This document shows positions 23,901 through 59,871 of a stretch of DNA of 64,000 nucleotides, in pieces. The notes beneath the pieces are model-generated. The model made no database searches. It saw only the letters and a program-made list of their open reading frames with translations, and was not told the DNA's origin. Source of the stretch: Polytrichum commune (lineage: Eukaryota > Streptophyta > Polytrichopsida > Polytrichales > Polytrichaceae); contig OX485809.1 of NCBI GenBank assembly GCA_950295325.1, positions 12,710,001 to 12,774,000 of the forward strand, in the 5' to 3' direction. Each line of letters starts with the position of its first letter. Position 1 is the first letter of the stretch. A program made the translations under genes and the position numbers.

Positions 23901-25203
23901 TTTATGACAGTCGGGATGCTTATAATCAATGTAGATTCTTATATAGACTTTGCAATGATTCACTTTATTCCATCTATTTGCAAAACAATGTATGATTGTA
24001 TTGATATACTATTTGTTTTGATATAATTTACATCTTGCAAAGCAGGGAACCAAGAAAGTTGAAGGTATATCATACAAAACATCTCAATGCCATTTACAAG
24101 ATCGGAATTATTGCTTAGACTTGGATCTAAGCAATCTTCAACTATTGACATTTCATGATGATATCAACAATGCATCAATCAACTTTCAACTATTCAAAGT
24201 TCTCCTTTCACAAGTTCAAGAACATTCATCTCAATTGAAGGCCATATTTATATATGGTAAGTTTCAACAATTTCCTAAGCAACTATGGCAATTGCATTCT
24301 TTAAGAAGCTTAGATATACAGGGATTGGGAACGCTCGAAGCATTGCATGAGGAACTTGGAAACCTCACTTCTTTGACAAAGCTTAATTTGCACGGGTGTT
24401 CAAGATTGAGAACATTACCCGAGGGACTTGGAAACCTCACTTCTTTGATGGAGCTCGATTTATATGCATGTTCAAGCTTGACAACATTACCTGAGGGACT
24501 TGGAAACCTCACTTCTTTGACGATGCTTAATTTGGAAAGATTTTCAAGCTTGACAACAATACCCGAGGGACTTAGAAACCTCACTTCTTTGACGGAGCTT
24601 TATTTGGGAGGATGTTCAAGCTTGACAACATTACCCGAAGGACTTCGAAACCTCACTTCTTTGACGGAACTTGATTTAGCAAAATGTCCAAACTTCACAA
24701 CATTACCCGAGGGACTTGGAAACCTCACTTCTTTGATGAAGCTTGCATTGGCAGGATGTTCAAGCTTGACAATAGTACCTGAGGGACTTGGAAACCTCAC
24801 TTCTTTGACTGAGCTTTATTTGGGAGAATGTTCTAGCTTGACAACATTACCCGAGGGACTTGGAAACCTCACTTCTTTGACGATGCTTAATTTGGAAGGA
24901 TGTTCAAGCTTGACAACATTACCCGAGGGACTTGGAAACCTCACTTCTTTGACGAAGCTTTATTTGGGAGGATGTTCAAGCTTGACAACAATACCCGAGG
25001 GACTTGGAAACCTCACTTCTTTGACGAAGCTTTATTTGAGAGGATGTTCAAGCTTGACAACAATACCCGAGGGACTTGGAAACCTCACTTCTTTGATGAA
25101 GCTTTATTTTGGGAGGATGTTCAAGCTTGACAACATTACCCGAAGGACTTGGAAACCTCACTTCTTTGACGGAGCTTTATTTTGGGAGGATGTTCAAGCT
25201 TGA
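20923..25203 (+). CDS. Protein kinase-NB-ARC-LRR immune receptor (moss-type PK-NBS-LRR)
   Basis: Three exons, 20923-22563, 22711-23784 and 24046-25203, join with phase-0 GT-AG introns (147 and 261 bp) into about 1290 residues. Exon 1: a hydrophobic stretch at residues 15-29, a helical region (about 45-205), then a kinase with GKGAYG (236-241), Lys256, Glu270, HLDLKPDN (354-361), DYG (385-387) and APE (413-415). Exon 2: a TNL-type NB-ARC with GMGGIGKTT, ILIILDDI, LIITTR, GLPL, FLDIACFF and MHD. Exon 3: linker, then 11 LRRs of 24 residues built on LTTLPEGLGNLTSL. A one-base T insertion near 25106 shifts the frame, so the protein ends in a 30-residue out-of-frame tail at 25203. Kinase-first NLRs are established in mosses. 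The role, intracellular pathogen sensing with nucleotide-dependent activation, is inferred from the family. Confidence 0.85.
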
Positions 25204-27842: not shown

Positions 27843-29449
27843 ATTACTTGAGGAACTTGGAAACCTCACTTCTTTGATGGAGCTTGATTTGTCATATTGT
27901 TGAAGCTTAAAAACATTACCCGAGAGACTTGGCAACCTCACTTTTTTGACGGTGCTTAATTTGCGCAATGTTCAAGCTTGACAACATTATCCGAGGGACT
28001 TGGAAACCTCACTTCTTTGGCACAACTTTATTTGGGAGAATGTTCAAACTTGACAACAGTACCCGAGGCACTTGAAAACCTCATTTTTTTTACGGTGTTC
28101 AGGTAGTTATATTGTTCAAGCCGGACAACATTACCCGAGGGACTTGGAAACCTCACTTCTCTGTCAGAGCTTTATTTGGGTGAATGTTCAAGCTTGAAAT
28201 CATTACTTGAGGAACTTGGAAACCTCACTTCTTTGATGGAGCTTGATTTGTCATATTGTTGAAGCTTAAAAACATTACCCGAGAGACTTGGCAACCTCAC
28301 TTTTTTGACGGTGCTTAATTTGCGCGAGTGTTCAAGCTTGACAACATTATCCGAGGGACTTGGAAACCTCACTTCTTTGGCACAACTTTATTTGGGAGAA
28401 TGTTCAAACTTGACAACATTACCCGAGGGACTTGGAAACCTCACTTCTTTGGCAAAGCTTGAATTAGAAGGATGTTCAAGCTTGACAACATTACCCGAGA
28501 GACTTGGAAACCTCACTTCTTTGACGAAGCTTGAATTGGAAGGATGTTCAAGCTTGACTACATTACCCGAGGGACTTGGAAACCTCACTTCTTTGGCAAA
28601 GCTTGAATTGGAAGGATGTTCAAGCTTGACAACATTACCCGAGAGACTTGGAAACCTCACTTCTTTGACGAAGCTTGAATTGGAAGGATGTTCAAGCTTG
28701 ACTACATTACCCGAGGGACTTGGAAATCTCACTTCTTTGACGAAGCTTGATTTGTCATATTGTTCAAGCTTGACAACATTACCCGAGGGATTTGAAAAGC
28801 TCAGTTCTTTGAAGGTGCTTAATTTTTCATATTATTCAAGCTTGACAACATTACCCAAGGGACTTGGAAACCTCACTTCTTTGACGAAGCTTGAATTGGA
28901 AGGATGTTCAAGCTTGATTACATTACCCGAGGGACTTGGAAAAGTCAGTTCTTTGAGAGAGCTTTATTTGACCAAGTCTTCAAGCTTGACAACATTACCC
29001 GAGGGACTTGGAAACCTCACTTCTTTGACAGTGCTTATTTTGTGCGAGTGTTCAAGCTTGACAAAATTACCCGAGGGACTTGAAAACCTCACTTCCTTGA
29101 TTGCGTTTTGTTTGGGAGGATATTCAAGCTAGACAATATTACCCGAGGGACTTGAAAACCTCACTTCTTTGATGGTGCTTCATTCAGAAGGATGTTCAAG
29201 CTTAACAACATCACCCGATGGACTTGGAAAACCTGACTTCCTTGACGGCGTTTAATTTGTGTGAGTGTTCAAGCTTGACAAAATTACCCGAGGGACATGG
29301 AAACCTCACTTCTTTGACAAAGCTTAAGTTGTCATTTTGTTCAGGCTTGACAACATTACCCAAGGGACTTGGAAACCTCATTTCTTTAAGAAAATTCTAT
29401 GTGGGGGAGTGTTGAAGCTTGACAACATTATCTAAGAAATTTGGAAACC
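27843..29449 (+). pseudogene. LRR array, block 2: about 22 units, with a 275-codon open stretch
   Basis: The array resumes after element A. A frame at 28305-29132 is open for 275 codons and encodes about 11 clean LRRs (LTTLPERLGNLTSLTKLELE type). Stops occur elsewhere, for example TGA after TATTGT at 27899-27903, TAG at 29130-29132 and TGA at 29413-29415. An internal direct duplication copies 27842-28065 at 28201-28425 (about 360 bp, five LRR units). No start codon or kinase/NB-ARC of its own precedes it, so it is a detached part of the same gene. Confidence 0.8.
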
Positions 29450-45487: not shown

Positions 45488-46770
45488 TTGTCCCCGAGCA
45501 GTGGCTTGAACTAAGCTTACAAATTCTTGTGTCCTTGCCCTGCAAAATATACGTACCTCCGTCAAGTTGCATCATCTTCCAGCCATTTTTCAAATACGTC
45601 ACAAACTGGTTGATGAGTGACAATGATCTATCAGAGATTACCTAAGTTAGAAATCGTGGTCCTACAACACACTGTCCCTTTGAAACGGGCGGTCATTGCG
45701 ACATGACTTCATTCACGTGTGTCAAGTCCAATCTATGACAATTGTCATAAATTCAACTTGACACATCTAATTGGGGTTATGTCTCAATGATCATCTGTGT
45801 CAAATGGCATGTATGTTCTAGGTCCCACAATCCTACTTGTGAGGAAAATATACAAAAGTCGTGTGATGTGGGTCCATATATGTATATACACACATAAGAA
45901 GGGACGAGGGTTTTTTGGGTCACTAGTAGGCTATGACATACTTAGAGCTGGTTTAGACTACAGTGAAGAAGTGCACTAATCAAAAAAATTAGGGGAATGA
46001 AGCAATATGGTTGGCTACGAAATGGGTTTTTCGTTGGCGAGGGTTCGCACTACGGTGAAGAACTTCAAGCATGGATGAAAAAATGACATGGTTGTCAACA
46101 TGGCAACACTTTTTGTTGGGGGAATTCTCCAGAGATCAAGTTTCTTGAGCAACCTCAAACCCAACCAACAAAAAAAATCGATTGTTGACTCTACGTACCA
46201 TGACACATAAGCTTCATGTACACTGAACCATGACTCGCATTCCACTGTCAATATCTAGCTACATTGTTAGCTACACCGTGGATGGTATTCAGTGTCACAT
46301 GCGAAATCGTGTCACTTACCCTATTTTGAGGTGTATGCTAGGTTGCACCGATGATGGGCAACTTCATCATTAGTGACACCTTATGACACTTGAGGTTCAA
46401 GTGCGCTTACTAGGAGTCGAACTGCCTATTCTTGATTAGGATTCCATCGAGAATCTATAGGGCATTGGAATTTCAATTACATTGGGACTGACTTCAATAA
46501 TTTCCTTTTGTGGGTGGTTGAAATAAGGTTTCATGTTTCACGGCTTGGGCTTTTGTGCATAGCAAGACATGATTGCGAGATGTCATGTTCATTAAAGCAC
46601 AAGTTAGTGAGAATGGCAACCTATATTATTGGTAATTGAATAAATTGCAAACTAGCAATGCACACCATTCTAGCGAGAAAGACAAGAATATGCATCTCTC
46701 TCCAAACTCCAAGTGTCCAATAGATTTGTGGGTTTGTTCCACACTCGGAGTAGCCCTTGCAAAGTAACCA
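45488..46770. other. No supported gene
   Basis: Non-coding by inspection. Short frames at 45797-45979 and 46015-46251 lack features. Confidence 0.3.
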
Positions 46771-46794
46771 TAATAATAATAATAATAACAACTT

Positions 46795-46813
46795 CGGTCT
46801 CCGAAGGAGACCG
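46795..46813 (-). other. 3'-terminal hairpin next to (TAA)n tail of the retrotransposon
   Basis: The sequence forms an 8-bp stem (CGGTCTCC / GGAGACCG) with a 3-nt loop, immediately inside the trinucleotide tail. Short 3' stem-loops followed by simple repeats are typical RT recognition ends in several LINE clades. Confidence 0.55.
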
Positions 46814-46991
46814 ACGTGAATTAAGTGTCTGTTCGATCTACCTTCAATCCCAAGCCCACAGGACAGAGGTATGAAGGAGAAGATCTACTCCCCCCTTTCG
46901 AGAGTAGACACTTTAGACACAAGAAACCATTAATGTAAACTACGCCTAATATAATACCCCTTGCCCCTTACCCTAACTTTTAAGTTCTGAG

Positions 46992-47803
46992 TTATGGGGG
47001 GTCTGGATTTTGGGGGAGTGGTTGGTGGTTTTCAATTCTCCTTTTATGGAGGAGAATAGACATAGCATATTGTATTGCAATGGTGTTAATATTTTTGAAA
47101 GTATTTTTGATGGTGGCCATAGGTATTTTGAATTTGGTCTCTAGTGCTTTCATAGATGGGATGTGGGCAGTCGCTCTGGCACCAGCAGTGATGACAATAA
47201 GTGGTTCGATTTTCAACCTTTGGAAGCAATGCTAGCAATTAGTGGGCTGTATTTGTTATTTTTTGCTTCAATTGCTTCTGGGGAGAATCTGTCATTACAG
47301 TATGTGAATTCAATGAATTGTATGGTAAGGTTAGGGTCGACATCGCTGGGAGGGGCATTTTGATAGGGTAGTCCTTTAACACAAAGGATATCAGGTCTAA
47401 ATCTTGCGTTGCAGTGACATCTTTGTGTACTACATGTGCAGGGGAGTAGCCAATTGGGGACTGTGTTTTCTTGGGGGTTGTTATTGAAGATGCCAACATT
47501 CATGAGAGTAAAGCATCGGGATTTTTCTGATGAGATTAGGAGCTTCCTAATTTCTCCGACTGCTTTGTTATGTCTTTTAACTCTAAGTGAGTGTATATGT
47601 TGGTGTTTACATGTAAGTAATACATGTATCCATGTATCTGGTTCATTTGAGTTGCATATGGGGCACGTGATAGTGGGAAATCTTTGGTGGCCAAAAAACA
47701 TTTGTTTTCTCGCATTACCCATGTAGGTTCCTGTGCGGAATTTGATGAGGCATGATTTTTGTTTGTCGGTGATAGCGGGATTTGTCCAAAATTCGTTCGA
47801 CAA
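46992..47803 (-). pseudogene. CCHC knuckle and restriction-like endonuclease-type domain (retrotransposon 3' coding part)
   Basis: The frame 47803-47213 encodes CPICNSNEPDTWIHVLLTC, a CX2CX9HX4C knuckle, then RFRPDIL, about 20 residues later IQFIEFTY, and EAKNNKYSPL. The order CCHC, then (R/K)PD, an acidic strand and K..KY matches the restriction-like endonuclease of R2-type LINEs. One base is missing near 47213; the frame continues as KIEPLIVITAGARA and ends at 46992. AP-type LINEs normally lack this domain, which makes its presence here notable. The assignment is by motif only. Confidence 0.5.
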
Positions 47804-47824
47804 CTCGTTGTCTATATCTATGTT

Positions 47825-48913
47825 TTATGTCCATTTACAGGTGTTGGAGGTTTGTGTGGCCATAATTGCTAGGTTCGTTTCCCTATCATATTTTTTAATT
47901 TGTTTTTCTAAGAATCTAACTGGGCCTTTGTCCGGAACGTCTTCCATCGAGGCCCATATGTCTTTTTGGTAATAGTAAGGGGTGGCGTGGGCATGTTCGT
48001 ATGGGTGGGCGGCAATTCTGTGCTCTAATTCTAATCCTTCTTTTACTAGTTTGTCTGCTTTTTCATTGCCGTCAATGTTGACGTGTGCTCTAACTTTGTA
48101 TAGTGTAATTGGTTGTGTCATTTTTTGGAGAATTTTTACCATGGAGGCTAGTGTGGTTTGGTCTGGGTGACTATTATGAAGTGTGGGGTGTTTAATTTGA
48201 GTGTTAAGTAGGTATAATACATTTAGACTGTCTGTGAATATGAATGCGGGTTCGTTGGGATATTGTGTGTTGATGATGCTTAGTGTTTCGTGTATAGCAA
48301 TCATTTCTGCTCGTAATATGTTTTGATGTCCATGTAATCTATTGGCGATGTTTAGCCCTTTGGGGCTGTAGATACCGTATCCAGCTCTTTCTCTTCTCCA
48401 TTCCCCAGGGGCTATTTCTGTGGGTTTCATAAAGGAGCCATCAGTGTAGTAGCTGAATTGGGGGTGGAATTTTAGTGGTAGGTTCGTTTGGGAGTTTGGG
48501 AGTTGTGGGGTGAGGGTGTTATTGTTTGGAGGTATCTTTGGGTAGTTTGATTTAGACCATTTTTTACTAGAGTTCACTGTGATGTTTGAAGGGGTGGGTG
48601 GTGCAATTTGGGTGTGGCTTTGTAATATTTGGAGATTGTCTGCTATGTCCTTTAGTAATTTCATTTGTTCATAGGTGCCTATGTTATTGTTTTGGTGGTG
48701 AATACAAAATATTTGTAGGGTAGGCGGTTCTTTTCTTGTAATATTGAGTTCGGGGGGTATTGTGGGTTCTTCATATGCAATCGTATCGGCTGCAAAGTGG
48801 GCAATGATGTGTGTGTCCAGGAATGGACCTATGTGTGGGTTTGGGTTTTTGTACCAATCGGTATCCGGAGATATAAGTATAGTGATTGCATATGGATCAT
48901 TTTGGGCCGCCAT
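47825..48913 (-). pseudogene. RNase H domain segment of the retrotransposon
   Basis: A 362-codon open frame carries the RNase H signature in order: YTDGSF (Asp), LRAEMIAIHE (Glu), FTDSLNVL (Asp), and KVRAHVNIDGNEKADKL (His/Asp). All catalytic residues are intact. The first 120 residues hold an uncharacterised domain (WARMAAQNDPYAITILISPD, then WYKNPNPHIGPFLDTHIIAH). It is separated from RT by 1.4 kb of damaged sequence with stops, so it is called as part of a pseudogene although this piece is itself open. Confidence 0.75.
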
Positions 48914-50322
48914 GCGAGCCCAGTGAATGGCTTGTTGTAAGTCTATTGCGTTGTGGGGGTGAGCGTATCCTATTCCTTGCCATTGTGGTCAAATGCTTTC
49001 CCTAAGGATCCAAATATTATGTCATGCGAGAATGGCGAGTAGAATTGGGTGAGTTGTGTGGGGCATGTCACTGGGGATGAGAAGTATGACTGGTTGATAT
49101 TGAATGTGGTTATTAGGAGATCTAATATTGGGGTTGGTATTGTATATTGGGCACGTTTGAGTGGGTCATTTTTCGGGATTCGGTATTTGTATCTTTGATA
49201 TAACCAAATCATTTCGGTTTCGAAAGATTGGGTGGGCGGTTCTAGACCATGTGTGGTATTTTTTGCCAATTGGTATTGTTTCCATAACCACATTAGTCTG
49301 GTTTTCGGGATGGTGATGAGGTGCCTACCATTATCTTCGTATAAGTGAGCGACGTCAAGTTGTATTTGGATAGTATCGGAGTTGGTTTCGATGTCATTTT
49401 CTGGGTTACATTCATTAATAGAGATATGTGCTAGTGAAATTATTGTGGTAGGTATGACATATCTCGTGTCTCTTTGTTGTTCGGTGGAGAAGTAGGCATT
49501 AATAATGTTTGAGAGGTGTTTGTGTTGTCTTTCCGTGTAGTAGTGGGTAAGTAGGATGGTGTTGTTGTTGCATGTGTTGGCATCGCAATAGGGGTATAGG
49601 TCCCTTGGAGTTTGCCATTTGTTGTATGTGTGGTTAGTTGTTGTAGTCCATTGACATAGGTATGACGTGACTGTTCTTTTTATTCCGTTATGGTCGGTAG
49701 ATTGTTTTTGTTTGTGATCAAGTATTTTGTATATGGGATATTGTCGGGGGTCCTTAAGTATGTTGTTGGGGGAAAGGGGATAGAGGGGGGATGGGAGGGT
49801 TTGGGGGGTGTATGGGGGGAGTCGGTAGGTGAGGTAGAATGTTGTGGTGTCTTAATATATATTTGTCTTTGAGGGATCTGGGTGGATGGTGTCGTTGGCA
49901 TGGTAGGGGGCATTCGAGATTACAGAGAGGTTGGCAAAATAGTTGATTAGCGATGTTTAGAGCACTTTGGATGAGTTTGGAAGGGGTGGAGTGGTAGATT
50001 TTGAATTCATCTAGGTTCATTAGTGTGGTGTCATTAGGCATGGTGATTTGGTCTAGTGTTGTTATATTATGTATGAGCAGTTTGTGTAATAGTTTAAGTG
50101 AGGTGTTGGGATTTAGACCCTGTAGCATTTGTGCTTCTTGCATCCACGCATCTTCGAGTGGGGATGGGTGTAGGAGGAAGTTGTTTATTGTATTTTTAAG
50201 GTGGACTCCGGCTTCATGCTTGAGCAGAAATAATGTTCTAGTGATAGGTGATCTAACACAGTGGTGGTATTTAATACGGGTAATTTCTTTAGAACCTCTG
50301 TATTTGGCAAGTATAAATTGCG
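48914..50322 (-). pseudogene. Damaged linker between RT and RNase H
   Basis: Short minus-strand frames in changing registers continue the polyprotein, including LKLLHKLLIHNITTLDQI (about 50100-50000), a proline-rich piece (about 49900-49750) and LVISKIQIPNPEK-like text near 49200-49100. Stops and frameshifts are frequent. No catalytic motif was recognised here. Confidence 0.5.
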
Positions 50323-51554
50323 TTAGGCCAGTAAAAATTTGGCAATTCGGCCTTTATCGTTAAGGGCGTTTTGTAGTTGCTCTCCAATACACCGTAGGTA
50401 GGCATTTTGTAGTGAAAATGCTTCAATTCCAAATAGGTTGTGGGGGAGTTGTGTAGTAATATTAGATGTGCATTTGCGTATTCCGCATATTATTTTATGG
50501 AGTGCGATGATCTTTTTGTCAAGTTTTTTTATGGCTGGTATGGAGTATGGTACTGCATAAAAACTATATGCTATTCCAGCGCGTATGACTGTATCAACCA
50601 TGTTGATTTTTTGTTTCATAGTAGTTGGGCATGCTACGAGGGTTTGACATTGTCTGATTACTTTAGCTGTAGTGGTATTTATTTGTGCTTTCCACTTGAG
50701 TGATGGTGCAAGATTTATTCCTAGGTATGTGTAGGGTTTGTGTTGGTTTAGGACTGGTATATGTTGGTTTCTATAGTTTATGTTGGTGGATTGGATTAGG
50801 GCCTTGAAGGTTGTGGGGTTAAGTTTGGATTTGTTTGGGCATCCAGTTACTACGCATTTTGGTATTCCTAGGTCCATTCCTGCCCATTCACAGAATTTGT
50901 CTAGTTTATTTAATTGTGTTTGTAGTGTCTCTAGTTTGTTGGCGATTGCTGTAAGGTCGTTTGGATATGCTGCTGATGAGATTTTAACTCTGGACGTACC
51001 GAAAGTATATCCATTGTTTCCTTGTTGTAGCCATCTAAGTAGGGGTTCTAGAAATATGATGAATAAGTATGGACTAAGGGTATCGCCTTGTATTGTACCT
51101 CTTTGAATGTGGATTGGTAGGGTTTTCCGAAGTGGTCGCTAGTGAATATGGTTGAAGATTATGAGTATATGTTTCATATGAGGTTTATTGAGTCATTGGG
51201 GTAACCCAAGTCTTTCATTATGGCTAAGAGTCTGGCGTGGTTAATAGAGCCAAAGGCGTTTTTGAAGTCAATGTAAAGAATGTATATATCTTGGTTTGTG
51301 AGTCTTGCGTCTTCAAGCGCTGCAATTAGTATTTGGATTTGTCTGGAGGTGTTTCTTTCTGCTCTGAATCCTTCTTGGCTATCGTGTAGTGTTTGGTATC
51401 TTTCTCCGTATGCTGATAGGATAGAGGTTAGTGTATTTGTGTAAAGTTTATATATGGTGTTAGCTAGTGCAATAGGTTTGTGATTTGTTAGTTGTGATGG
51501 GTTACCTTTTTTATATAATAAAACTGTTAGGCTAGTTTTCCATGATGCGGGAAT
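50323..51554 (-). pseudogene. Reverse transcriptase palm and thumb, with YPND in place of YADD
   Basis: After a TAA at 51555-51557 the same frame continues IPASWKTSLTVLLYKKGNPS and EGFRAERNTSRQIQILI, then YILYIDFKNAFGSINH (motif A Asp). Stops and a frameshift near 51120-51180 follow. The next frame gives RGTIQGDTLSPYLFIIFLEP and SAAYPNDLTAIAN where AYADDL is expected, so a catalytic aspartate is replaced. PYTYLGINLAPSLKWKAQIN follows (motif E region), and the frame ends at 50323. Non-LTR RT identity is clear; this copy is inactive. Confidence 0.85.
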
Positions 51555-53168
51555 TTATTTTTGTTTATAACAGTGCTTAAAGAATAGGAAGAATAATTTG
51601 TGAAAGCGCGGAGGCATATTTTTTAGAATTAAGTTGGGAATTTTATCTGGGCCTGGGGCTTTGTTGTTACTTAGGTTTTTAAGACAGAAGTCGTAGGTTT
51701 CTTGATCAAAGTATGTGTGTAAGGGGATTTGGGGTTCTCCTCGTTTGTCAATTGTGTATCCTTCTAAGTCGTGCCATGGGTATTGTCTGACTCCACATGT
51801 GCAGTGTAGTGGGTGTGTATTTTGATGGTGGCATGTGGGGACTGTTGGGCGGTTACTGATAGATTGTTGCGCGTATATTTCTGATGCAATGTCTTCAGGG
51901 TTAGTTAGTATATTATTTTGTCTATCAATGATGGAGTCAAGAGGTGAGGTTTCAGTATTTTTTAAGACTTTACGATTTATTTTTTTTGAATTTTTTTCAT
52001 ATATTTGGCGGTATTTTGATACGGCTTTTAGAATGCAGTCTTTGGTGTATTTTGTGGTGATTTTCCTAGCTTCTTTGTTTGCAGTTTTTGCGATGATTGT
52101 TATGGTGTCAATCCATTCAGCAGGAGATGTTGTTGTAGAGGGTGGGTGCGGGATGTTGACGTGTTTGTGATTTCGGATATCGTTTAGAATGGGGTGCGCT
52201 TGCCAGTGTGGGTCATGTTGTGCTATGTATATGGTTTTTCTGATGAGGTGATATGTGTTGAGGTGTCTTTTCCATTCTCTAGCTAGTTTGCATGGTAGAA
52301 AACCACCTTGTTGTGATGTTTTGTTTGTAAGGCTGGATAATGGGTCTGCTTTGTACGTTTTTTCAATTGTTTCTGAGATTTTGTTTATAATATAATCCAA
52401 TGATGTACAGGCTTCTTGCCATTGATCAGATGTTAAGTGTTGGTGATTTTCTAGTAGTGTGGTAAGTGTTTTTAGTTGTGTAGAGTTTTCTTCGAAGAAT
52501 ATTATGTTAAATTTTTCTAGGTTTTCTGGTGGTATCGGATTTAGTATTCTATTTGGTGATATGTTTGTGGGGGGTGGGGATCTGGCTATAAGTGTGTTGT
52601 GTGGGATGTGTAAGGTGACTGGGTAGTGGTTTGAGTTTAGATTCATGGTTGTGTTTGTAGTGGGAGTAAATTTGTTGTTGTCTGGAAAGTGGATGTAGAA
52701 ACCATCTATTAGACTTGTTGATGTGTAATTATAGCCCCCTTGTCGGGAAAGACTAATGTTAGTTGGTATGTATTCAAGGTTGAGAGATGTGGTAAAGTGT
52801 TTCCATTGTAGATCCTCTTTTTGGGGAGGGGTATAAGTGTTGTTAGTATGTCTTCCTCGGAGTGCAATATCTCTGTTGAAGTCACCACATAGTGTGTATA
52901 TGTGATTTGGATGTGTAGTAATTTGGTTAGTGATTTTGGTTTTGAGGAATGGGATAAGGCATGTGTCTGCTACGTGTGTGGGCATATACATGTGTAGGAT
53001 TAGCCATGGTATTGAGGGGTGGTTATTGATTTTGATTATTTGTAAATACGGGGAGATGTTTGTTGGCGTTGGAATTTTGGTGACATTTCCAGGGAATGCA
53101 TACTTGTTGTGGATAAGTGTGAGTAGGCCGCCTCTTCCAGGGGTGTAGGGCAATCTTTGTTGTATGCA
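51555..53168 (-). pseudogene. AP-type endonuclease (second half) and start of reverse transcriptase
   Basis: The frame follows directly on a TGA at 53169-53171 that interrupts the endonuclease. It encodes YTPGRGGLLTLI, LHMYMPTH, TLCGDFNRDI (catalytic Asp-Phe-Asn), SLIDGFYIHF and NLNSNHYPVTLHIP, where SDH is normally expected and Ser-Asn-His is seen. About 330 residues later NNKAPGPDKIPNLILKN opens the RT domain. A TAA at 51555-51557 ends the frame inside RT. Confidence 0.8.
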
Positions 53169-55694
53169 TCATGTGAAAGCATGTGTGTTGTTAAAGATAA
53201 GTTTGAACTCAGGAAATAGATTCTGTATGTATTTTGTGGATTTGTTTGCTGTTAGTTTAGTTTCTTGGATATGTATGATTGCTGTATTGTTTAAAGAGTT
53301 ATTGATGAGACTTTGTAAGTTTGGTAGAGCGGTGTTAAGTGAGGAGGCATTCCAAGTTATTATATTTGTTTCGTGATTGGTGCTAGTGTTGGTTCTAGGT
53401 TCTGGTGTGGGGGTGACTGGGGGTGGGGGCGGGTGTGAGTATTCGTTAATATTTTCTAGGCAGCGGAGTGATTCAATTATTAATTGATTTGGGAGAAAGG
53501 GAAATTTGCTTTGAAGAGTGGTAAGTGTAAGTATGATCTCTTGGTTATGGATAAATTCATATAATTCTTTATGTATTGAGTTTTTGGGGTGTATTATATC
53601 TTGGTTATTGTTTGTAAATGTTGTGTATGGGTGTGGTGTTAGAATGTGTCGCTCGGGGGGGTTGGAAAGGTTAGCTAGTCTGATGAGTAATGTGTTTGTC
53701 CATATGTTGTTAAAGTGATAAATGTGGGGTTGGGCTAGTATATTGTTGCATGTGTTTATTGAGGGATGTATAGTAATGGTAAGAGCATATAACATATGAG
53801 TTAGTGGAGAATGACTTTGTGTTATGATGTATTGGTGTAGGTGTGGGTATATAGTCATTGTCTGGTGGTGTAGGGGGTGTGTATGCTTGAATATGGGGGC
53901 AAATGTGCTTGCTATGTGTTGGTATTCAGGTTGTAGTTTTATTGTGTTTGGGATGAAATATATTTTAGCTCGCTTTTTGTGTGTAGCGGGGTGTGTCCGG
54001 AGAATATTGGGCATTGGTCCGGGGTTGGGTTCTATGTCTCCACATTGTAGTAGGGTTAACTTGTTGATGAAGTAGTATCCACGGAAGTGAAGTATTTTTG
54101 GTTTTTTCTTATTTATTTTTAGGTATTTTATTGTTATGAGTTTGGTTGTGGTAAAGAGGTTGGGTAGGGCGGGTGTTATGTTTCTTAATTGTTTGGGTAA
54201 GAAGTGTGCATGTGTGTTGTTCTTAGTTATGTGATTTGTTATTGCATTAGGTTTCCATTTGTTTATGAAGTGGTATTTGCTATTAGTTTTATGGCGGGGC
54301 CGGTAGGTCGAGGCCATTTTGTTTTTGGGTGAAATTTTGTGTTTTGTGTGGAAGTGGAGTTGTGCTTTGAGGCAAAGTTTTGGGTGGGGTTTGAGGTTTT
54401 GGTATTGGTATGGGTTGAGTGTTTTTGATTTGTTTTGATTTGTTTTTTGGTGTTTTATGGGTACGGTAGAGGGGTTGGGTGTTATGTTTCCTAAATGTAT
54501 AGATGGGAAGTGTGTGTATGTGTTGCCTTTAGGTGTGTGGTTTGTTATTTTGTTAGGTTTCCAATTGTTTGTGGGGTGGTTTTTATTAATAGTTTTGTGG
54601 TAAGGTCGGTAGGCCGAGGCCGGTTGGTTTTTGGGGTAGATTTTGTGTTCTGAGTGAAAGTTGAGTTTTACTTTGCAGTAGAATGTTAGATAGGGTTTGA
54701 TGTTTGGGTGGGAGTTGATTATTTGTGCCTTTTTTTTGTTTGTTTTTTGGTATTTTATGTGTTTAGTTTTAGTTGTGGTAAGAGGATTGGGTGGGGTGTG
54801 TGTTATGTGAGGCTTCCTCTTGATTGTGGAGTTATATTGGTAATTCGTTTTGTGGCGAGGCCGGTAGGCCGCGTCCATTTTGTTTATTTGATGAATCTTG
54901 TGTTTTGAGTGGAAGTAGAATTTTGCTTGGAGGCAAGTTTTTGGCTGGGGGTTGAGGTTTGGATGGGGGGGGGTGTTTATGATGGAGTTTGAGTTTTGGA
55001 TGCGGTCTTTGTTTTGGGTATAAACTATGTTTTGGATATACTTTGTATTTTGGGTGGCATTCATTTCTTGGGTAATATCTGTATCTTGGGTGAAGCCTTT
55101 GTATTTTGTGTTTTGGATGGGAGGTATAATTTGGGTGGGTGTAGGTTTATTGTATGGGTGATTTGTGTAATTTGGTTTGTGTGTAGGTTTTTGATGCATG
55201 TTTGATGTACTTGATGTAATGAAGTAGTATCCATATAAGTGAGGTATTTTTGGTTTTTTCTTATTTTGTTGATTTTTAATGAGTGCAAGTTTTGTTGTAG
55301 AGTAAATGTTGGGTAGGGCGGGTAACTTAGTTTTGTGGCGATGCCGGTAGGCCGAGGCCGGTTTGTTTTTGGGGTAGATTTTGTGTTCTGAATGGGAGTT
55401 GAGTTTTAATTTACAGTGGGGTGTTGGATAAGGTTTGTGGTTTGGGTGGGGATATGGGTGGTAGTTGATTTTCTTTTGGCTTTTTTTGTTTGTTTTAAGA
55501 TATTTTATGTGTTCGGTTCTAGTTGTGGTACGAGGGTTGGGTAGGATGTCGGTTATGTTTCTTGATTGTTTAGATGAGAGGGGTGGATATGTATTGTCCT
55601 TAGGAATGTACTTTGTTGTTATGTGAGGATTCCTCTTGATTATGGAGTAATGTTGGTAGTTTGTTTTGTGGCTAGGCTGGTAGGTCGAGGCCAT
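53169..55694 (-). pseudogene. Repetitive K/H/P/N-rich leader, 2A-like motif and start of AP endonuclease
   Basis: An 841-codon frame. Residues 1 to about 540 are diverged copies of a module with YRPRHKTN, NWKPN.ITN, TTKL..IK and NKKKP.I.H..GYYF. Residues about 546-560 read LTLLQCGDIEPNPGP, matching the 2A consensus DxExNPGP. About 100 residues later an SPLTHMLYALTITIHP region starts a non-repetitive part, and NIITWNASSLN with IHIQETKLT opens the endonuclease. The coding strand is A/C-rich, so a long frame alone is weak evidence, but the AP domain is in the same frame and supports translation. A TGA at 53169-53171 ends it. Confidence 0.6.
54015..54059 (-). other. 2A-like ribosome-skipping motif
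   Basis: The minus strand encodes LTLLQCGDIEPNPGP. It fits the D-(V/I)-E-x-N-P-G-P core at all fixed positions and has the usual leucine-rich lead. In 2A function the ribosome fails to join the final Gly and Pro, releasing the upstream peptide and continuing with Pro. Here this would split the repetitive leader from the endonuclease-RT part. 2A-like sequences are known in non-LTR elements of animals and trypanosomes; activity here is inferred. Confidence 0.7.
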
Positions 55695-56300
55695 TTTGTT
55701 TATTTGGTAAATGTTGTATTTTGAGTGGCAATATAGTTTCGATTGGAAGCAAATGTTTGGGTGGGGGGGGGGTATTTATGTTGGAGTTTGAGTTTTGAAT
55801 GGAGTTCTTGTTTTGGATGTAAGTTATGTTTTGGATGTAATTTGTATTTTGGGTGACCTTCATTTCTTGGGTAGTCCTTATATTGTGGGTGAGGCCGGTG
55901 TGTTTTGTGTTTTGGATTAGAGGTATAATTTGGATGGGTGTTGTATTTTGTTCGGAGAGTGTGTTTTGGGTAGTTGTTATTGTGTGGATAGTTATTGTGA
56001 TTTAGTTTGTGTGTAGTTTTTTGATGCATACTTGATGTACTTGATGTAGTGAGGTAGTATCCATATAAGTGGAATATTATTGGTTTTTTCTTATTTAGTT
56101 TTTGGCATTTAGTGAGTGCAAGCTTTGTTGTGAAGAAAGTGTTGTGTAGGGCGGGTATTATGTTTTCTTGTTGTTTGGGTAGGGGGTGTAATTTTGCATA
56201 TTTTTTAGTTATTTGATTAGTTATTGGGTTAGGTTTCCAATTATTTGTGAGGTGACATTTGCAATTAGTTTTGTGGCGAGGCCGGTAGGCCGAGTCCGTA
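54290..56300. repeat. Six copies of a GC-rich GGCCGGTAGGCCGAGGCC-like motif with intervening repeats
   Basis: Copies near 54298, 54605, 54857, 55341, 55675 and 56278 have variable spacing (about 250-600 bp). On the minus strand each encodes the YRPRHKTN block of the repetitive leader. The motif is strikingly GC-rich against its G/T-rich, AT-leaning surroundings. Confidence 0.7.
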
Positions 56301-56854
56301 TTATTTTTTGTGTAGAGTTTGTATTCTGAGTGGGAATTGGGTTTTGGACGAGGACATAGTTTGGAGTTTTGGTGGGAGTTGTGTTTAGGATGGAGTTTGT
56401 TTTTTGTATGTGTCCTTACTTTAGGATGGGTTTCTTGTGCTAGGTGTGAGTTGTATTTTGGGTGAGATATGTGCTTTGAATGGGATATGAGTTTTGGGTG
56501 AGGCCCATGTTTTGGATGGGGTTTGTTTTTTGGATGAAGTATGTGTTTTGGGTACCTTCTGTATTTCGGATGGGGGTAGTTGTTTGGATGAAGACTATGC
56601 ATTGGATGAGGACTATGTCTTAGATGATGATTGTATTTTGGATGAGGTCGGGGTATTTTATGTTTTAGATAAATATTGTATTTTATGCGGCGGTTAGGTT
56701 TTGTATGGTAGTTGTAGTGTGGTTGGGTGTTGTATTTTGGTTTTTGTATTGAATGGGTAGTTTTTTGGAACATACCGTATGGGTATGTTTGTGGAATACG
56801 TTTGTATTCCATATAATTGTTGGTATGTAATTTGTATTTGTATTTGTATTTCAT
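55700..56854 (-). pseudogene. Upstream part of the repetitive leader, with HPKxxx hexapeptide repeats
   Basis: A 384-codon frame in a different register from the next one, so a frameshift or a break separates them near 55700. It starts KYKYKYKLH, then has about 20 copies of a six-residue period (HPKH.., HPKY.., HPKN..; 18-bp period). One module of the YRPRHKTN type follows, then a further hexapeptide stretch (HPKYKLHPKHNLHPKQELHS). It is very basic and low in complexity. It may have been a nucleic-acid-binding leader of the retrotransposon, or the frame may be open only because the strand is A/C-rich. Confidence 0.4.
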
Positions 56855-57007
56855 ATAAGATTGTTTACATCGTATGGTATTCTGTAAGATACTATGATAT
56901 ATTGTATCTATACAAGTATGTTTTTTTTTGTGTATGGCTACATCTATATACTGCTATGTATCTAGGGCAGTATTGTAGTAAATACTTTTGTTCTTGGCGG
57001 TTTGTGG

Positions 57008-58789
57008 TCACTCCACATTTGGTTGGCCTTTTAGCATGAGGTTAGGTTGTACCGAGCCCGTAATTTGTTGCATTCCGGTAAGTGCCAAGGTCAAAGTGCT
57101 TTGGATGTCTAACATTTGCTTTTTTAGTTTATCATTTATTTCATCCGCATAGATGTGTGCCTCTCTAACTATATCATTCTTTAACTCCTTCATGTCTTTG
57201 TGGAATTCAAGTTTGAGTTTCTTGTTGCCTTCTTCAATTGCCTCCTTCATGACGTTGAACACGTCTCCCTTTGTTGTACTGGCCTCCTCTTGTGTTTGAT
57301 TTTGGATGGCTTCAATTGTGTTTACCAAACACGTGTTAGTATCTTCAAAACCAAATTTGATTAGTAATTCTTTGGGGGGTTTGTCATTACCTTCAAGGCT
57401 TCGGCGGTGTGGGGTAATTTCCACATGGTAGGCCCCAATTTTTGCTTCTTTGCCTACAAACTTCATGTATACAAAGGGGTTAAGGCATTCCACATTTGCA
57501 CTCCCATTGTGTCTCAAGCCATCTTGTTTGTGAAACCAAATAGATACGACATTTTTGGTTCCTAGTACTTTGCAAATTTCAAGAGAGGTATCTTCAATAT
57601 TCATCAAAATGGGGAGGTTATAGAGGGTTAGGGTAAGAGCCTCTTTTCTTGCCTTTTGCTCCAAAGTGAGAGAGGGACCTTTTGTCACTTGACCTTCAAG
57701 GATTTGGTGTTGTGTGGATACTTGGAGAGTTTGGATTTTCTTGGCTTGGTGTGGGGTAGGGGCAACAATATAAGCATGATTGTTAGCGGTGCTCTTTTGA
57801 ACCTCTACAATCTCAAAGTTGTGCCCTCTTCTAAAGCTATTTTCTAGGACATCAAGAAAAAGGGCATGGGATGATATTCCAATCAATGTGTCATTTGAGA
57901 TTCTGATGGAGAGGTTGTTATTCCTAGCAATGGAGTGGTATGATTTACATACCTTGACTAGGCTTCCAACATTTGAGTGGGGCTCAAGGTGGAGGATGAA
58001 GGGTCTAAGACCCGTGAGCAAGGCTACTCCATCAATTTGAGGGTGAAGGAGGTGGAGTTTGACTATTCCGGCCCAAACTCCCTTAATTCCACCTCTCTTA
58101 ATGCTCATGCATAGAATTGAAATGGGTTCAATGAGGTTAGTACCTAGCAGGATTTTCATGTCATTTAACCTTTCTTTGACAAGCTCTTTGACATGGTTAT
58201 GGAAGAGGGGGTTATTGGGGAGCTGAAAATGGATGGCAATTTGAAAGTCTAAAGACATGCAAGTGATAGGGTCGATTTCTATTTCATTTGGGAGTTGAGT
58301 GAGGTTAAGATGTTGGCCGGGAAGGCCATCACTTCTCTTGTTGGGGTACAAGATTTGTGGCACCCTAGGGTAGGAAATGCTTACACTTTCTAGTTCTTCG
58401 GCTTCTTTGCGGGGAATGCCTCTTGTTACTCTGTCAGCGATGGTTTCGTCCATGAATAATTCGTCTAAGCCTTGGTCTGTGGCAATTTTCTCCATTACTT
58501 CAAATCCCAACCATAGCTTAAGTGGTTGTTCGGATGAAGGCTCCGAGATTTCGGCCGTAGTGTGTGGCGACTGTCTCTGTGGGGGAGTAACGGCGAGGGG
58601 GTCCCTGGTTCGTTTCGCAGCCCCTTTGTTCGGCAGTCTCGCCTTCTCGGCAAGTAGCCGTTTCAGGCTTAGGGACGGGGAGTCGATTTCCATTGTGTCT
58701 TCTTCTGAAAAAATCTTGGACAGTGCCGTGGGGATGAGTCCCCCTCCCGCTGCGCTCCCATTGCGCTGTGTGTTCTTCTGTTGGGTCAT
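57008..58789 (-). CDS. Retrotransposon ORF1-like protein with RRM-type domain and coiled coil
   Basis: A complete 593-codon frame starts at 58789 (MTQQKNTQRN). Residues 1-90 are disordered and basic with a K.KR-type patch. The middle (about 100-340) is a folded region of unknown family (LGFEVMEKIATDQGLDELFM; IPRKEAEELESVSISYPR). At about 385-465 LTLYNLPILMNIEDTSLEIC to NPFVYMKFVGKEA looks like an RRM fold. The last 100 residues (KEAIEEGNKKLKLEFHKDMK ...) form a coiled coil. RRM plus coiled coil suits a LINE ORF1 protein that binds element RNA and multimerises. Base composition is balanced, unlike the skewed ORF2 region. It has no stops, in contrast to ORF2. Confidence 0.65.
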   Translation of the reverse strand: MTQQKNTQRNGSAAGGGLIPTALSKIFSEEDTMEIDSPSLSLKRLLAEKARLPNKGAAKRTRDPLAVTPPQRQSPHTTAEISEPSSEQPLKLWLGFEVMEKIATDQGLDELFMDETIADRVTRGIPRKEAEELESVSISYPRVPQILYPNKRSDGLPGQHLNLTQLPNEIEIDPITCMSLDFQIAIHFQLPNNPLFHNHVKELVKERLNDMKILLGTNLIEPISILCMSIKRGGIKGVWAGIVKLHLLHPQIDGVALLTGLRPFILHLEPHSNVGSLVKVCKSYHSIARNNNLSIRISNDTLIGISSHALFLDVLENSFRRGHNFEIVEVQKSTANNHAYIVAPTPHQAKKIQTLQVSTQHQILEGQVTKGPSLTLEQKARKEALTLTLYNLPILMNIEDTSLEICKVLGTKNVVSIWFHKQDGLRHNGSANVECLNPFVYMKFVGKEAKIGAYHVEITPHRRSLEGNDKPPKELLIKFGFEDTNTCLVNTIEAIQNQTQEEASTTKGDVFNVMKEAIEEGNKKLKLEFHKDMKELKNDIVREAHIYADEINDKLKKQMLDIQSTLTLALTGMQQITGSVQPNLMLKGQPNVE

Positions 58790-58902
58790 CGCGGTTTGAG
58801 TGGTGATTCCCCTTCTACTTTGGGCTCCTCGTTTGTTGTAGCTTGCTGGGTTTTTCTTGTTTTCGGGGATTGATGGGTGATTTCTGCACTGATGGTTTAG
58901 GA

Positions 58903-59871
58903 TTACCTTCTCCCTGGAGATCTTCTGGTTTGTGTCGCTGGGGTCGGTTTGGTGCGGGCTCCTATTAGTTTCGGTGCTATGTAGATCTCTGTACCTGCAA
59001 TGTGGGTCTCGGTGCGGACTCCAATTGGTTTCGGCGCTGTGGAGATCTCTGTACCTGCAATGTAGATCTCGGTGCGGGCTCCTATTAGTTTCGGTGTTGT
59101 GTAGATCTCTGGACCTGCAATGTGGATCTCGGTGCGGGCTCCTATTAGTTTCGGTGCTGTGTAGATCTCTGTACCTGCAATGTGGATTTCGGTGCGGGCT
59201 CCAATTGGTTTCGGCGTTGTGGAGAACTCTGTACCTGCAATGTAGATCTCGGTGCGGGTCCCCTTCTCCCGCCTCGCCTTTCGTCCGGTGCAGCTTGATG
59301 TTGTAGCCGTTTTGATGGAGATTCCAGCTGCGGTGCAGGTTACCTTCGGTGTAGACTCGATCTCCCGCTCCGACTTCTTCTTCCTGTAGGTGTGGCTTGG
59401 TTTCACTGCTGCCGTGGTTTCGGTGTAGATTTGCTCCGCGGCTGCGGTGCAGACTGTCTTTCTCGCTGCTGGTCTTTCTTCAGTCGCGCCTTCCTCTCGG
59501 GGTAGTGAGGTTTCGGTGATGTGGCAGGTTTGATGCTCGCTCTGGGCTTGGTATGGCCCTCTGTCCATTCGGGTGACAATTTCGATGTTGCTGCGCGCAC
59601 GGGGAGGCTTGCTTCCAGCTTCGATCCTATGGCTGATGCCGTACTCAGTAATGTAGATCTTCTTATGTAGATCCGTTCGGTGTAGTTTTGGATCTATGAT
59701 CCCTATATCTGTATAATTTTGAGGAAAAAGAGAAACTGTAATTGCAATGAGTATGGAGAGGAGAAGGAGCCTATGGCTCCTGTATGTCTTTCTATCTATT
59801 TGGCTGGAGTAAGTTCCTGGATCAGTGATGCGTCCGTGGGAATCAGTGTGTTTGTATCCTTGATGCTTCAC
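58903..59871 (-). CDS. Repeat-bearing frame at the 5' end of the retrotransposon
   Basis: A 322-codon frame starts at 59871 (MKHQGYKHTD). It has a hydrophobic segment (LLLLSILIAITVSLF, residues about 35-50), then a basic middle with KKKSERE and GRKARREK, and ends in five to six copies of a 20-residue repeat (GARTEIHIAGTEIYTAPKLI type). The repeats correspond to the 60-bp minisatellite at 58951-59250. It could be an extra LINE ORF or simply a 5' leader whose repeat length, a multiple of three, keeps it open. Expression is not shown by the sequence. Confidence 0.35.
   Translation of the reverse strand: MKHQGYKHTDSHGRITDPGTYSSQIDRKTYRSHRLLLLSILIAITVSLFPQNYTDIGIIDPKLHRTDLHKKIYITEYGISHRIEAGSKPPRARSNIEIVTRMDRGPYQAQSEHQTCHITETSLPREEGATEERPAARKTVCTAAAEQIYTETTAAVKPSHTYRKKKSEREIESTPKVTCTAAGISIKTATTSSCTGRKARREKGTRTEIYIAGTEFSTTPKPIGARTEIHIAGTEIYTAPKLIGARTEIHIAGPEIYTTPKLIGARTEIYIAGTEISTAPKPIGVRTETHIAGTEIYIAPKLIGARTKPTPATQTRRSPGRR
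58951..59250. repeat. Minisatellite, five exact 60-bp periods
   Basis: Units start at 58951, 59011, 59071, 59131 and 59191, and a sixth start (GGTGCGGG) lies at 59251. Two subtypes alternate: one with CCTATTAGTTTCGGTG and one with CCAATTGGTTTCGGCG, in the order A, B, A, A, B. Confidence 0.9.

Follow-up and report, generated by a model that had tools for sequence, protein, structure and literature searches.

The window, by which we mean the whole 64,000-nucleotide stretch of Polytrichum commune DNA analysed here, contains a 2A/StopGo motif that is very probably functional and lies in ORF2 of a moss family of APE-RT-RNase H LINEs, where it would free a long leader from the enzyme polyprotein. 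Viruses of animals use such 2A ribosome skipping as a form of recoding, and so do retrotransposons of animals and trypanosomes. On the minus strand, the window reads ...GYYFINKLTLLQCG DIEPNPGP MPNIL..., and the core DIEPNPGP agrees exactly with the 2A consensus D(V/I)ExNPGP. The preceding tract LTLLQCG provides an active-type context, being leucine-rich and ending in (A/S/C)G before the aspartate. L-rich StopGo motifs of classes 2/6, with aspartate at position 12 and a hexapeptide ending in (A/S/C)G, have been published as active (PMC12846837), and the moss tract fits these classes. The stop-to-stop frame with the 2A spans 868 aa (55775..53169, minus) and runs through a conserved N-domain into the start of an AP endonuclease (NIITWN at 53366). 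Coding sequence is in frame on either side of the 2A, and at least 30 residues are present upstream. The earlier note's two structural claims, a match to the 2A core at its fixed positions and a location upstream of the AP endonuclease in the same frame, are thus both confirmed.

The host element of the motif is a decayed non-LTR retrotransposon (LINE) on the minus strand, which reaches from ORF1 as far as the (TTA)n tail at about 46770 (Table 1). The window copy is dead, because its frame is broken by frameshifts downstream of the AP endonuclease start. An intact relative, L051, has a single frame of 2919 residues with the 2A at residue 579, and its profile matches comprise RVT_1 (3.9e-27), RNase H (1.5e-14) and Exo_endo_phos (over the cut-off). 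By its RT, AP endonuclease and RNase H domains, the element is an APE-type non-LTR retrotransposon. Against proteins of solved structure the RT scored 7e-34 with R2 and 1e-19 with L1 ORF2p. A further domain of ORF2 resembles PCIF1 (Pfam PF12237, 2.9e-12, over the cut-off). Where PCIF1 has its catalytic motif NPPF, this domain has HPPN, HPHN or YPTN, so methyltransferase activity of the PCIF1 type is improbable; the structure model of this region was too poor for use (pLDDT 36). The N-domain was modelled as a helical fold starting at the skip proline (overall pLDDT 78, rising to about 90 in the first 110 residues), and a fold search of the PDB returned no significant match for it. At the other end, the alignment of the window element to a relative stops at about 46771, and on its 3' side the element probably ends in the (TTA)n-tailed region around 46770. 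A hairpin, GGTCTCC-TTC-GGAGACC, is found at 46780-46810 (minus), immediately before the tail. Elsewhere in the genome, two copies with equal scores (G000), at C2:42788349 and C5:35132115, have the same 2625-aa open frame, which suggests recent transposition of this LINE group.

Table 1. Features of the window element, and domains of the intact relative L051 (amino acid positions).
Feature	Position	Strand	Remarks
2A/StopGo core DIEPNPG/P	54015..54038	minus	predicted skip between G and final P
Leucine-rich tract LTLLQCG, exit-tunnel part of 2A	54039..54059	minus	L-rich class match and purifying selection
ORF1	57006..59479	minus	823 aa frame; C-terminal part conserved, 36% to L057
Leader in frame with 2A	54039..55775	minus	low complexity; repeats 306 bp and shorter
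Remaining leader	up to 57005	minus	frameshift-broken in window copy
Helical N-domain	53433..54014	minus	conserved; first residue is the proline after the skip
AP endonuclease domain	52626..53366	minus	frameshift at ~53168; 66% identical to L051 APE; Pfam Exo_endo_phos in L051
Reverse transcriptase	50356..51734	minus	split over two frames in window copy; RVT_1
PCIF1-like domain (Pfam PCIF1_WW)	48767..49245	minus	between RT and RNase H
RNase H domain	48035..48457	minus	
C-terminal region with Cys/His cluster	47013..47965	minus	
3' untranslated region	46768..47012	minus	GGTCTCC..GGAGACC hairpin and (TTA)n tail; read from sequence
L051 APE	aa 801-965		
L051 RT	aa 1418-1681		
L051 PCIF1-like	aa 2171-2299		
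L051 RNase H	aa 2434-2577		

The region between ORF1 and the 2A is open in one frame. From the ORF1 stop to the 2A, three long intact copies (1646, 2528 and 865 bases) contain no stop at all in the 2A frame versus 39 + 27, 50 + 51 and 24 + 17 stops in the other two frames; under a first-order Markov null, 25.5, 38.8 and 12.8 stops would be expected. Counted over 46 copies, the last 498 bases before the 2A have 119 stops in frame with the 2A, whereas the two remaining frames have 451 and 435. The open frame likewise switches at the end of ORF1 in the intact leaders of L125 and L126. Because it is open only in the 2A frame, we read the leader as translated. The leader had been described beforehand as long and repetitive, and this is indeed the case: all nine tandem-repeat rows of the window leader and ORF1 have periods that are multiples of three. 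Leaders are basic, one of them with 171 K+R against 15 D+E in 837 residues, and alignments between families reach no farther upstream than the 2A itself or some dozens to a few hundred bases beyond it. A GC-rich motif, GGCCTCGGCCTACCGGCC, is repeated in the leaders of the window copy (54171-57000, minus), L051 and L054. It is read in frames that differ by family (ASAYRPRHKT versus RARPTGLAQ); what is conserved thus seems to be the DNA or RNA and not the peptide, and the motif could fold into a small hairpin.

Selection was assessed from nonsynonymous and synonymous counts (N/S) among family A copies, observed against a neutral expectation. Upstream of residue -10, the ratios are 2.33 versus 2.82 (residues -92 to -31) and 2.05 versus 3.06 (residues -30 to -11). 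At residues -10 to -1 the ratio falls to 0.52 versus 2.11, and in the 2A core it is 0.32 versus 2.67; the way in which copies were chosen helps the core value, but has much less influence on that of residues -10 to -1. The N-domain gave 0.75 versus 2.62. Selection is therefore strong from residue -10 through the core, and the leader farther upstream is almost neutral; constraint thus begins at the point from which a 2A would be sensed in the ribosome exit tunnel. Together with the frame-specific openness of the leader, selection from residue -10 supports, at the level of sequence, the separation of leader and catalytic protein suggested in the earlier note.

These data also bear on whether the leader is translated at all. 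ORF2 might begin at the ATG right after NPGP (PMPNIL...), leaving the leader untranslated and the 2A-like peptide unmade or incidental. The nearly unconstrained, A/C-rich leader sequence would suit such an arrangement, and the Met after the skip proline is conserved in most families, as internal initiation would have it. However, amino-acid selection acts on residues -10 to -1 and the core, and family C has no Met after NPGP; a purely untranslated leader was rejected, as no frame but that of the 2A is free of stops and the repeats have periods divisible by three. We consider internal initiation very unlikely, and a translated leader that ends at the 2A remains our reading.

The motif was followed through the genome (408 Mb, seven large contigs, with the window on C7) by a search with the downstream N-domain alone, the motif not being in the query, which gave 716 candidates and 150 scored places. 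N-domain copies were found on all seven large contigs. The exact motif directly precedes the N-domain in 43 of the 61 places on contigs C1 and C2 that could be cross-checked. The other 18 comprise DIHPNPGP (four), DIEPHPGP (two), truncated or unrelated sequence (three) and, for the rest, mostly single core transitions, which are expected from the decay of methylated DNA. It counts against a working signal that the core is damaged in about one in five of the copies sampled, although most of these cases resemble single C-to-T or G-to-A decay. E14K, carried by the otherwise open copy L125, was considered as a functional variant and rejected, since E14K copies mostly reflect single G-to-A decay. 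In seven diverged representatives, with protein identity down to 31%, G-DIE-x-NPGP is invariant. Absence from related full-length elements, which would have counted against the motif, was not seen; it is kept in several diverged families, copies with an uninterrupted frame included.

Two variants form lineages of their own. DIHxNPGP (histidine at position 14, H14) has 69 genome copies versus none for the reversed pattern, and DIExHPGP (histidine at position 16, H16) has 13 versus none. H14 copies differ synonymously at nearly every codon, and this lineage is not simple decay, because a change from E to H takes more than one base change. In a 2026 study, both histidines were rare viral variants, each more than 95% active in viral-context assays (PMC12846837).

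Some families carry two to four in-frame copies of the 2A. Among the fetched loci, 12 extra upstream DIxxNPGP motifs are in the main 2A frame (ten distinct sites, since two overlapping locus pairs repeat sites), and one is in another frame with an intervening stop; from coordinate lists alone, seven of eight 2A pairs are in frame. Locus L116 has DIQLNPGP, DIELNPGP, DIYTNPGP and DIHPNPGP within one frame. Glutamine at position 14 is common among the upstream copies, and the published activity of E14Q is partial (PMC12846837). The spacers between tandem 2As resemble degenerate N-domain starts of other families, suggesting that leaders grow by acquiring 5' pieces of other elements.

An ORF2 N-terminal peptide conserved for structure or targeting, resembling a 2A by coincidence, is similarly improbable. 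The L-rich tract is hydrophobic, and an N-terminal 2A of sea urchin NLRs also acts as a signal sequence (PMC4981915). Yet the tolerated changes (H14, H16, a variable residue at position 15, an L-rich tract with (A/S/C)G before D) are StopGo's own, extra copies lie hundreds of codons upstream, and a signal-like function has no need of NPGP. A chance match is ruled out by the genome-wide count of the DxExNPGP DNA pattern (278 sites versus 2 for the reversed pattern), and, with core codons varying synonymously and copies on every large contig, chance or an assembly artefact has practically no probability left.

For the StopGo reading, we propose the following course of translation. ORF2 would open at or near the ORF1 stop, probably by reinitiation. 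In intact copies, an AUG overlaps the ORF1 stop or lies within about 125 bases of it, and in e55 and L125 it lies five bases before the stop. ORF1 is in a -1 relation to ORF2 in e51, e54 and L126 and in another relation in e55 and L125. A -1 frameshift from ORF1 is unlikely as the general entry, since the frame relation differs among intact copies; these differences and the AUG near the ORF1 stop are better fitted by reinitiation. The first ORF2 product would be the leader, about 250-850 residues long, basic and of low complexity. Once the L-rich tract and DIxxNPG are made, the nascent chain would block the Gly-Pro bond and the leader would be released. Translation would resume at the proline and yield an enzyme polyprotein of N-domain, APE, RT, PCIF1-like domain and RNase H. 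In this way the 2A may insulate the polyprotein from the leader, which would be free to vary or be replaced because release of the polyprotein would not depend on what precedes it. That 2A functions in plant cells is established (PMC4981915).

As to the host, the genome has LEAFY SAM-domain matches at four loci, and one exon near a LEAFY match has aspartate at a lineage-diagnostic LEAFY position, which we take to be the moss type, flowering plants having histidine. Several LEAFY loci, one of them with a moss-type residue, support the land-plant host proposed before. The window itself further contains, at 20902-25203 and 28263-29132 (plus), a protein kinase frame and, after it, an NB-ARC that has a Roq1-type winged helix, together with long, nearly identical LRR repeats; by sequence we assign them to a putative kinase-NB-LRR resistance-type locus. 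Along with the LEAFY matches, the seven chromosomes and this kinase gene beside NB-ARC and LRR frames point to a moss as the probable host, perhaps one of the hair-cap group.

Neither the 2A mechanism nor its use in APE-type LINEs is new: such LINEs have been described from animals and trypanosomes, reportedly by Heras 2006 and Odon 2013 (cited in PMC4981915 and PMC12846837). Those LINEs resemble the moss elements in being APE-RT elements with the 2A upstream of the endonuclease, the same core and an L-rich upstream context. The moss elements differ from them in the plant host, a separate ORF1 upstream, a long translated hypervariable leader, tandem 2As, H14/H16 lineages and the PCIF1-like domain. 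With the viral L-rich StopGo motifs 2/6 they share the core, the hexapeptide ending in (A/S/C)G and the rare H14 and H16, but the moss sites are in retrotransposons (PMC12846837); among plant viruses, StopGo was almost absent in a 2026 survey (PMC12846837). Multi-2A viral polyproteins likewise have several in-frame 2As per ORF (PMC11512398), whereas the leader that holds the upstream moss copies evolves fast, and Q at position 14 is frequent in these copies. Plant LINEs have been described as L1 and RTE only (PMC9033089). These are also non-LTR elements with endonuclease and RT, and often RNase H, whereas the moss element has a 2A and a PCIF1-like domain, and its RT scores far better against R2 than against L1 structures. 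Our literature search, whose coverage is incomplete and does not establish priority, yielded no report of a 2A in a plant LINE or land-plant element. The land-plant host, the tandem sites, the variant lineages and the exchangeable leader appear to be new.

With moderate confidence, we regard these sites as natural StopGo in a land-plant genome, with the 2A insulating an enzyme polyprotein from a translated, freely exchangeable leader. If this insulation is true, the elements could gain new 5' coding modules, tandem 2As included, with the enzyme unharmed. A leader that stays open with nearly free sequence is an unusual evolutionary pattern and directly testable. StopGo is in wide use in plant biotechnology. 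Several hundred plant-evolved sites, with lineage-fixed variants and tandem arrays, would be a resource for plant multigene expression and a means to compare upstream contexts for their activity on plant ribosomes. They would also inform the question of how LINEs adjust the ratio of their proteins.
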